Shown piece after piece: positions 46,068-49,564 of a stretch of 64,000 nt of DNA (within the stretch, counting starts at the first letter, position 1; every line of letters begins with the position of its first letter). Position numbers and translations under genes: made by a program. This stretch comes from an uncultured Candidatus Nitrosopumilus sp. (lineage in GTDB: Archaea > Thermoproteota > Nitrososphaeria > Nitrososphaerales > Nitrosopumilaceae). Below the pieces are notes generated by a model. The model saw only the letters and a program-made list of their open reading frames with translations. It ran no database searches and was not told the origin of the DNA. Where the stretch lies: positions 1-64,000 of the forward strand of contig CAJQSE010000019.1 in assembly GCA_905612485.1 (NCBI GenBank). Reading direction: 5' to 3'.

Positions 46068-47393
46068 TTATCCCAATCCCATTTTTCTAAGAGTACCTTG
46101 CATTTGACGACCTTTTGAAGCCTTCATTAAATTCTTAGAATTTTTATAATTTTTGAGTAACTCTTTAACTTCACCCTCAGCCCATCCAGAACCACGTGCA
46201 ATTCGTTTAATTCTAGAAGAATTAAGTAAGTCAGGATCTGCCTTTTCATCTTTATTCATACTTTGAATGATATACCGCCATTTTGAAACTCTATCCTCCA
46301 TTTGATCAACTTGATCCTCTTTGACCATGCCAGACATTCCAGGCATGCTGTCAAGAAGTCCTTTCAAAGAACCAACTTTAGTAACTTCCTCCAACTGATA
46401 AAAGAAATCATCCATATTCATTTTTCCGCTTGAAATTCGTTTCATTCTAACATCATCACCCTCATTTTCCAATCTTTTTGCCAAATCCAATACAGCTTGA
46501 ATATCACCCATTCCAAGTAATCTACCAACAAATCTAGTGGGTGAAAATTTTTCTAAATCATCAATTCTTTCACCAGTACCAATGTACATTATTTGTGCAC
46601 CAGTTGCAGCAGATGCTGCAAGTGCACCACCACCTTTTGCAGAACTATCCAATTTTGAAATGACTACACCCCCAACTGGAATGGTTTTATGAAATGCTTC
46701 TGCTTGATTGAAACATTGTTGTCCAATAGTACCATCAATTACAAGTAAAGCTAAATCTGGTTCTGCAACTTTATTGATTTTAACCATTTCTTCAAGTAGA
46801 TCATGTTCCTCTTTATGACGACCAGCAGTATCAATTATGATTACATCAAGAGATTTATTTTCAAAATATTTTAAACCATTTTTTACAATGTTTGGAGAAT
46901 CCTTGTTATTTTCTTCACCATAAACTTCAACATCAGATTTTGCACACATCATTTTAAGCTGAATTAATGCACCAGGTCTGTAGGTATCAGCACCAACAAC
47001 TCCAACTTTGTGTCCTTGACCAATCAAAAATTTAGCAAGTTTTGATGCCATAGTGGTTTTACCACTTCCTTGAATTCCCAATAAAATTATTTTGTTTTGT
47101 TTACCAGGTATAAAATTAAAATCAGATTCATTACCAAGTAATTTAGTTAATTCATTATAGAGAATTTTTACAATATGATCTTTACGTGAAAGCCCAGGAG
47201 GCGGAGTTTCATTTAATGAACGCTCTTCTAATCTCTTAGTAATTTCAAGAACTAATCTCACATTTACATCAGACGTCAATAATGCTCTTTGAACATCTTT
47301 GCAAAGATCTTTAATTAATTCCTCATCTATGCCTGAAGATTTAACAATCTTTTTGATTGCATCGCCTAAACTACTTTTTAATCCATCAAGCAT
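46068..47393 (-). CDS. srp54: Signal recognition particle protein SRP54
   Basis: GIQGSGKTTMASKLA, DTAGRHKEE, C-terminal M domain. Confidence 0.97.
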   Translation of the reverse strand: MLDGLKSSLGDAIKKIVKSSGIDEELIKDLCKDVQRALLTSDVNVRLVLEITKRLEERSLNETPPPGLSRKDHIVKILYNELTKLLGNESDFNFIPGKQNKIILLGIQGSGKTTMASKLAKFLIGQGHKVGVVGADTYRPGALIQLKMMCAKSDVEVYGEENNKDSPNIVKNGLKYFENKSLDVIIIDTAGRHKEEHDLLEEMVKINKVAEPDLALLVIDGTIGQQCFNQAEAFHKTIPVGGVVISKLDSSAKGGGALAASAATGAQIMYIGTGERIDDLEKFSPTRFVGRLLGMGDIQAVLDLAKRLENEGDDVRMKRISSGKMNMDDFFYQLEEVTKVGSLKGLLDSMPGMSGMVKEDQVDQMEDRVSKWRYIIQSMNKDEKADPDLLNSSRIKRIARGSGWAEGEVKELLKNYKNSKNLMKASKGRQMQGTLRKMGLG

Positions 47394-48075
47394 CGTAATT
47401 TAATTCTGCATCTACTATTTCAAACCTTCCTCTATACCCATCCCAATTTTTTATAAAATCATTAATTTTGATTGGATGGGAAAAAAGAGGACAGTTCAAT
47501 ACAAAAGTTTCAGATTCCCCACCTTCAAAATTTAAATTAAATCCAAATTTTACAGATAAACTAGTCAAAATTTTAATATCAGATTTTGAAATTAATTTTC
47601 CCAACCATTGTTCATCTAAACCATCAGAAGACACAGTTATCATTATAAAATGAAAATTAGAATCAAGTAATTCATTCATGTATTCATTTGTGTCAGTACC
47701 CCATAACGGTGCAATAGAAACTAAATTTAATTTTAGACATAAAGTTTCAAATTTTTCTTTTTGAAATTTACTTTTAATTCCTCCATGAATTAAACCATCA
47801 ATTTGAAATTGTTCTTTTGCATTTTGTAATAATTTTTCCATTACAATTAATTCATCTTTAGTTTCATCAGAATTAGAAATAATAGTTAATTGTGGAATGT
47901 TCATTGATTCAGATTGTAATTTAGTCCATTTCAAATTGGGATGATGTAGAAGATGGCTTTCTTCAGATTTTGTAAATATACTTAATAAGCATACAACATC
48001 ATGTCCTTGCTTTTTAGCAAGATGAATAGCATATGTACTATCCTTTCCACCAGAAAAAAGACAAGCTAATTTCAT
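47386..48075 (-). CDS. dph6: Diphthine--ammonia ligase
   Basis: CLFSGGKDSTYAIHLA, GLIHGGIKS, PLWGTDT, GGESETFVL. Confidence 0.93.
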   Translation of the reverse strand: MKLACLFSGGKDSTYAIHLAKKQGHDVVCLLSIFTKSEESHLLHHPNLKWTKLQSESMNIPQLTIISNSDETKDELIVMEKLLQNAKEQFQIDGLIHGGIKSKFQKEKFETLCLKLNLVSIAPLWGTDTNEYMNELLDSNFHFIMITVSSDGLDEQWLGKLISKSDIKILTSLSVKFGFNLNFEGGESETFVLNCPLFSHPIKINDFIKNWDGYRGRFEIVDAELNYDA

Positions 48076-48123
48076 AATTTAATAAAAAACCAATCTAATA
48101 AAATTCTAGAATTTATTGAAAGA

Positions 48124-48186
48124 GATGCTTCAATACTCATAATCGTCATCATAAATCAGACGGCTTTTCCAACAATCATCAGCATC
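48124..48186 (-). ncRNA. Box C/D sRNA candidate (63 nt), D guide predicted to target C34 of a CAU-anticodon tRNA
   Basis: Minus strand: GATGC-TGATGA-TTGTTGGAAAAGCCGT-CTGA-TTTA-TGATGA-CGATTATGAGTA-TTGA-AGCATC; boxes C, D', C', weak D (TTGA), terminal stem GATGC/GCATC. Confidence 0.65.
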
Positions 48187-48284
48187 TGTTATAGTTCTGT
48201 GTACATATGATTTTAGTGCTATGATTAACATACAATTATCAAATTATAATTGAATAAGTAAAGTATTTTTGTAAAATTATCAGT

Positions 48285-48698
48285 CTAACTATTTTTGATA
48301 GTCATAATTTTGGTATTATCCATTACAACCCAATATTCAACATTTTGTCCGTTTTCTAATTTTCCTTTAACTTCATCATCAATCATAGCAATATCTATGG
48401 TCTCAAATGACTCAGAATCCATAACTTGTACAATTTCACCATTAATTGAAATGATTTGGCCAACTTTTTTGTTAATCATTGGGATGTGAATTTGCATACT
48501 GACAGGGCCAACATGTGGTCTATTTTTTCCATCAAAGATGCCTTGACCAACTATTCGAGCTTTTGCTGCACCGTGTTTACCAGGTTTTGAGGTATCATAT
48601 TCAATAATTCTACATGGTTCACCACTAGGTTGATCAGAGTGTGGAAGTAGAATGTATGATCCAATTTTCAAAGAACCTAGATCAGATGGTTTACTCAT
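48285..48698 (-). CDS. eif5a: Translation initiation factor IF-5A
   Basis: EYDTSKPGKHGAAKARIVGQGIFDGKNR (hypusine loop). Confidence 0.95.
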   Translation of the reverse strand: MSKPSDLGSLKIGSYILLPHSDQPSGEPCRIIEYDTSKPGKHGAAKARIVGQGIFDGKNRPHVGPVSMQIHIPMINKKVGQIISINGEIVQVMDSESFETIDIAMIDDEVKGKLENGQNVEYWVVMDNTKIMTIKNS

Positions 48699-48730: not shown

Positions 48731-49342
48731 CTACTTTAGCTGATCAAGAATTGAAAGACTCAATAAATTAGATAATTTAAACCCCTTTCGAGTAATATCG
48801 CGTTGTGTTTGATCACAATATTTTTTTACACTCTGATGGCTTTTTTCACTAGCAACTTCAATTACAATCATATTTGCAAAATAAGGGAAAGTAAATTTTG
48901 AAGGAATTAAACAAGTGGTATCCATATGTCCAATACTAGCAACTTCAATCTTTTCTCTTTTTAGTAATAGACCTGAAATCTCTATCAAACCTTCGTCATC
49001 TTCATCATATTCTAAATAATATATTGAAATAAAATTAGTGTTACCCAAAACTTCTCGTTTAAAAAGTTCATCATGGATATTAAATACAAATGAAGTTTTT
49101 TCTTGAATGTGTTTAGATAATTCTTTTTCTATAAGAGAACTATCTTTAAATTTAGCTAGTAGATAATGATTAGCAGAAGTTGAAAAATAAGGTTTACTAT
49201 CATTAGAAAAAGTACCGGTGACAAAATATAATTTTTCAATATTTTTAGAATTAGTCCAAGATTCTTTTAATTCAAGAGAATCATGATTGTGCAAGTAGGG
49301 GACACAAACATACCCAGAATAAGATAATTTTTGTTTAGACAT
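48731..49342 (-). CDS. Hypothetical protein
   Basis: 203 aa ORF, coding-like. Confidence 0.65.
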   Translation of the reverse strand: MSKQKLSYSGYVCVPYLHNHDSLELKESWTNSKNIEKLYFVTGTFSNDSKPYFSTSANHYLLAKFKDSSLIEKELSKHIQEKTSFVFNIHDELFKREVLGNTNFISIYYLEYDEDDEGLIEISGLLLKREKIEVASIGHMDTTCLIPSKFTFPYFANMIVIEVASEKSHQSVKKYCDQTQRDITRKGFKLSNLLSLSILDQLK

Positions 49343-49439: not shown

Positions 49440-49564
49440 CCCGTGGTAGCTCAGCCTGGTAGAGCTTCCGGCTGTAGTTGTTGGCTTAAGATGGCTGACC
49501 GAAAAAACAGCATATCAGGCATACAGAAACCGGGTTGTCGAATGTTCAATTCATTCCCGCGGGA
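49440..49564 (+). tRNA. tRNA-Tyr (anticodon GTA) with 51-nt intron at 49478-49528; CCA encoded at 49565-49567
   Basis: Acceptor CCCGTGG/CCGCGGG, anticodon arm TCCGG-CTGTAG[intron]A-CCGGG, T arm GAATG-TTCAATT-CATTC. Confidence 0.93.

Follow-up and report, generated by a model that had tools for sequence, protein, structure and literature searches.

The gap between the eIF5A and dph6 genes in the 64,000-nt stretch of DNA analysed here (the window) holds a 63-nt locus without existing annotation (positions 48124-48186, minus strand), which raises the question of whether it encodes a genuine box C/D sRNA and, if so, which nucleotides its guides would direct to methylation. A first-pass annotation had read it as a candidate guide for C34 of tRNA-Met, with boxes C, D' and C', a weak box D and a GATGC/GCATC terminal stem, and all of these elements are present. 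On the minus strand the order is the 5′ stem arm GATGC (48182-48186), box C TGATGA (48176-48181), a 16-nt D' guide region (48160-48175), box D' CTGA (48156-48159), TTTA, box C' TGATGA (48146-48151), the D guide CGATTATGAGTA (48134-48145), box D TTGA (48130-48133), a single A and the 3′ stem arm GCATC (48124-48128). The box order C-D'-C'-D is satisfied, and boxes C, D' and C', assigned from the sequence and the genus alignment, match the consensus (RUGAUGA/CUGA), the base before UGAUGA being C rather than R. The length, 63-66 nt in the genus, fits the 50-70 nt range of archaeal C/D sRNAs with a terminal stem, and the sequence is predicted to permit two L7Ae k-turns; a fibrillarin gene was found in the same genome (PF01269, 299 bits, G000:C41). 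Two features count against this reading. The D' spacer has 16 nt instead of the usual 10-12 nt, and the terminal box D is TTGA or ATGA across the genus, not CTGA. Its first base is therefore non-consensus; the UGA core shows no variation across the genus alignment, which leaves both sheared G-A pairs able to form.

In favour of a chance arrangement of the boxes one can cite the AT-richness of the window and the single-strand folding of the element, which was unremarkable and uninformative (z -0.97). However, the pattern TGATGA-N10-20-CTGA-N2-10-TGATGA occurred once in the 64 kb against 0.01 occurrences expected from dinucleotide shuffles, and the element is conserved. BLAST located it in 30 of 36 relatives of the same genus, where the flanks diverge and the boxes and the two antisense stretches hardly vary. 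Majority identity in the alignment, which comprised members of the genus and of the order, was 0.94 in the core, 0.76 in the upstream flank and 0.66 in the downstream flank. With a covariance model built from this alignment and a cut-off of E<=0.01, matches scoring up to 91 bits were obtained in 251 of 300 order genomes and in 128 of the 150 genomes drawn from the class. The order and class samples share genomes, and the weakest hits (E about 0.001 to 0.01) could represent other C/D sRNAs. The five base pairs of the terminal stem were paired in 94% of the cells of an alignment of 46 deliberately diverse sequences, compared with 69% in shuffles, and double-sided changes, which affected all five pairs, numbered 52 versus 12.6 in shuffles and no more than 8 when the stem was slid, a count somewhat biased toward the structure by the fitting of these sequences to the model. 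The class-wide conservation and the covariation already refute a chance arrangement, to which we assign a negligible probability. The element is a genuine archaeal box C/D sRNA, and it is common to ammonia-oxidising archaea and their relatives, being conserved class-wide and beyond its own organism.

The first-pass annotation had also placed the element in the dph6-eIF5A gap and had proposed that boxes and guides be looked for in relatives. Pfam domains confirmed both neighbours on the minus strand, eIF5A upstream (48285-48698; PF21485/PF01287) and dph6, encoding diphthamide synthetase, downstream (47386-48075; PF01902), and in relatives boxes and guides are kept at this same locus. Further upstream of eIF5A lie a 203-aa ORF without a Pfam match (48731-49342, minus strand) and, on the plus strand, an intron-containing tRNA-Tyr(GTA) gene (49440-49564), which was missed by ARAGORN and found with Rfam (45 bits), its identity being taken from a near-identical homologue in a complete relative genome (G006). 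The gene order eIF5A - sRNA - dph6 - SRP54, on one strand throughout, is kept in most of the family, and the adjacency of sRNA and dph6 reaches other families of the class, with a spacing of 2-8 nt in several cases. The proximity to dph6, upstream of it and on the same strand in many genomes and at only 2 nt in several other families, could mean that the element acts in cis, as an L7Ae k-turn within the leader of dph6, to control dph6 translation, the guide matches being secondary; a role of archaeal L7Ae in regulating translation has been proposed (PMC5539422). This is very improbable, given that the element persists with eIF5A upstream where no adjacent dph6 was detected, that conservation is centred on the boxes and on two antisense stretches matching rRNA and tRNA in the N+5 register, and that the element has a promoter-like box of its own. 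This box, ACTAAAAT (48210-48217, minus strand), lies 24-31 nt upstream at a near-fixed distance in the genus; it is retained there even with a different upstream gene, and the end of the eIF5A gene contains it in many species. Its position fits a putative TATA-like promoter belonging to the sRNA itself. A T-rich stretch after the stem (48119-48123, minus strand) is a weak putative terminator.

As to the targets of an independently transcribed sRNA, the D guide was compared with the CAU tRNAs. The complete genome G006 holds three of them, which we assigned from sequence features as initiator, tRNA-Ile2-like and elongator, the last with a 40-nt intron that, judged from the pairing of the arm, would sit between positions 30 and 31. 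The mature elongator anticodon arm reads CCAG-A-CTCATAA-TCTGG. Within the D guide, GATTATGAGT forms ten contiguous pairs with ACTCATAATC, i.e., nt 31-40 of elongator tRNA-Met, which sets C34 opposite the fifth base counted from box D. Alignment to the elongator tRNA-Met of the relatives hence bears out the earlier claim that N+5 falls on C34, and the stem foreseen with it (A31-U39, G30-C40) is exactly present there. The 12-nt match originally proposed, TACTCATAATCG, is in fact shorter, only the ten pairs at nt 31-40 being contiguous; in the pre-tRNA, T30 belongs to the intron, and a U occupies position 41. Discrimination would come from pair 31-39, because the initiator and the tRNA-Ile2-like tRNA of G006 read GCTCATAACC where the elongator reads ACTCATAATC. 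The elongator arm is the same in nearly all relatives examined, and in two that have another stem sequence (G043 and G057) the ten target bases are nonetheless identical. Perfect 10-nt targets in the rRNA/tRNA set were found for fewer than 1% of shuffled D guides, and the guide core GATTATGAG, complementary to ACTCATAATC of the elongator, is retained in 33 of the 46 diverse sequences. An elongator tRNA-Met gene was not found in the element's own assembly, which is 74% complete; this counts against our reading, and it is from the closest relatives that the match in this organism is therefore inferred. L010, the first tRNA-Met detected in the own genome, was dismissed as a target, its arm GGCTCATAACC being that of the tRNA-Ile2-like gene and not of the elongator. 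Elsewhere in the order the elongator intron is likewise at the non-canonical 30/31 position (L104, L113-L143 and others), and some members show apparent further insertions in the variable/T-arm region of tRNA-Met.

The D' guide had been left without an assigned target, and a search of 23S rRNA supplied one. The guide GGAAAAGCCG finds its complement, CGGCTTTTCC, in the own genome's 23S rRNA, with 10 pairs at CGGCUUUUCC in the peptidyl-transferase centre, the base adjoining D' (N+1) being unpaired. The N+5 target corresponds to E. coli C2510, as placed in E. coli 23S rRNA by means of the anchor GGGAUAAC (A2451). The exact target of the D' guide, ACGGCTTTTCC, was also sought, and in the own genome it matched only the sRNA itself; the true target has U rather than A opposite N+1. 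As with the D guide, shuffling the D' guide gave it a perfect 10-nt target among these rRNAs and tRNAs in fewer than 1% of cases. Moreover, the guide base at N+7 agrees with 23S position 2512 in 32 of 33 genomes (A with U in 17 and G with C in 15), the sole exception being G054. This co-change of guide and rRNA largely follows one phylogenetic split, so that it reflects one or few events and may be a single one.

Taken together, the 63-nt sRNA very probably guides methyl marks to C34 of elongator tRNA-Met and to the catalytic centre of the ribosome. In the proposed mechanism the sRNA would be transcribed independently, the C/D and C'/D' k-turns would be occupied by L7Ae and the sRNP completed by Nop5 and fibrillarin; the D guide would pair with nt 31-40 in the anticodon loop of elongator (pre-)tRNA-Met for 2′-O-methylation of the wobble C34, and the D' guide with 23S CGGCUUUUCC in the peptidyl-transferase ring, where C2510 (E. 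coli numbering) would be methylated. The analysis itself establishes the sequence, its conservation, the covariation of the stem, the two complementarities in the N+5 register, the co-change of guide and rRNA, the synteny and the presence of a fibrillarin gene. We infer expression of the sRNA, sRNP assembly and both methylations, and we give this double-guide explanation as a whole a probability of about 0.88. The candidate tRNA-Met C34 guide of the first-pass annotation is thus supported, each of its sequence-level predictions having held, although it was incomplete as to the D' target and the class-wide conservation.

The degenerate box D raises the alternative that only the D' guide of a genuine C/D sRNA works, on 23S C2510, the tRNA-Met match being weak or a relic and C34 being methylated otherwise or never. 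In keeping with this, and against our reading, families f2 and f3 have changed D guides with the D' guide kept; a search with a simple, strict pattern, which also missed guide-carrying genomes of families f8 and f21, found no separate sRNA with a tRNA-Met D guide in f2 and f3. The retention of GATTATGAG across most families of the class, the invariant UGA of box D in the genus and the maintenance of the C34 register even where box D changes make this alternative distinctly unlikely. The sRNAs of the window type with a retained 23S D' guide and a tRNA-Leu(CAA)-type or other D guide are apparent cases of guide retargeting: in G051 (L055) the D guide is GATCTTGAGTT, which fits C34 of tRNA-Leu(CAA), and further examples come from f2 and f3 (L057, L059, L221, L226 and L227). 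With the same backbone carrying different D guides in some families, they offer a tractable case of retargeting.

Guides for Cm34 of tRNA-Met, both archaeal and human, are already known (PMC7994747, PMC6601510, PMC2584109), C34 being methylated by human SNORD97/SCARNA97 and by archaeal box C/D RNPs (PMC6601510). In Haloferax volcanii, a box C/D guide serves the same modification on elongator pre-tRNA-Met, likewise within an archaeal box C/D RNP system (Joardar 2011, as cited in PMC6601510; the guide was predicted in PMC2584109). No Rfam family reached its gathering threshold on the element (best 23.7 bits versus 63). The best E-value was that of the archaeal C/D sRNA sR41 (RF01126; 18.6 bits, E 0.0066, far under its gathering 54 bits), whose D guide also has UAUGAG at N+3 to N+8, which would fit a tRNA-Met loop, and whose D' guide differs. 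The title of the 2011 report on the Haloferax volcanii guide reportedly mentions its "unique features". Among the weak but informative Rfam similarities, SNORD97 aligns on the D guide, and plasmodium_snoR28 and snoR77Y align on the D' guide; these carry no proof of common ancestry, as guides to a conserved target are bound to resemble one another. The SNORD97 consensus guide GAUUAUGAG adjoins box D and has the same target nucleotide, C34, but the RNA is eukaryotic and longer and matches under the Rfam threshold, and the resemblance probably arose by convergence, the target being conserved. In humans, 28S Cm4456 (old C4426) is guided by SNORD49A/B (PMC9941101). The plasmodium_snoR28 consensus has AGGAAGUGCCGUC beside its D' box, close to GGAAAAGCCGUC in the window sRNA, and SNORD49A/B, plasmodium_snoR28 and snoR77Y are all eukaryotic guides with Rfam matches under threshold. 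By counting, we take human 28S Cm4456 to be the position of E. coli C2510. To our knowledge, none of these three groups includes a tRNA guide. One class-wide sRNP might couple methylation of wobble C34 and of 23S C2510 in an ancestral guide arrangement whose guides are separate in eukaryotes (SNORD97-type and SNORD49-type), a speculation that we consider unlikely.

Membership among the box C/D sRNAs is well supported, and a predicted target pair of rRNA and tRNA in one sRNA is unusual. In Pyrobaculum, the tRNA-targeting C/D sRNAs reportedly have a second guide without a target (Lui 2018, as summarised in PMC7994747), whereas both guides have one here. Each activity has known counterparts; for the combination of a tRNA-Met C34 guide with a peptidyl-transferase rRNA guide, and for its conservation across the class, no description appears to exist in the literature searched. 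In that part of the literature no account of thaumarchaeal C/D sRNAs was found, and an earlier prediction may exist elsewhere. The locus provides a candidate tRNA-Met C34 guide for an archaeal class that is abundant worldwide and has guide RNAs apparently undescribed in these sources, and it predicts a specific methylation in the peptidyl-transferase centre, at 23S C2510.

A sister C/D sRNA for C34 of tRNA-Leu(CAA) was found in the own genome (L286, G000:C13:7057-7078) and in G006 (L216, G006:C1:97277-97336). It has the same architecture, its D guide GGATCTTGAGTT adjoining CTGA, but differs from the window sRNA in its D' guide, for which a 23S search gave no convincing target, and in its genome location. 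Its pairing apparently extends into the pre-tRNA-Leu(CAA) intron, in which case methylation would precede splicing. G054 carries a second related C/D sRNA (L058, G054:C28:15130-15192) with the D guide CGAATGCAAGTA, which possibly fits the anticodon loop of a UGC tRNA (Ala).
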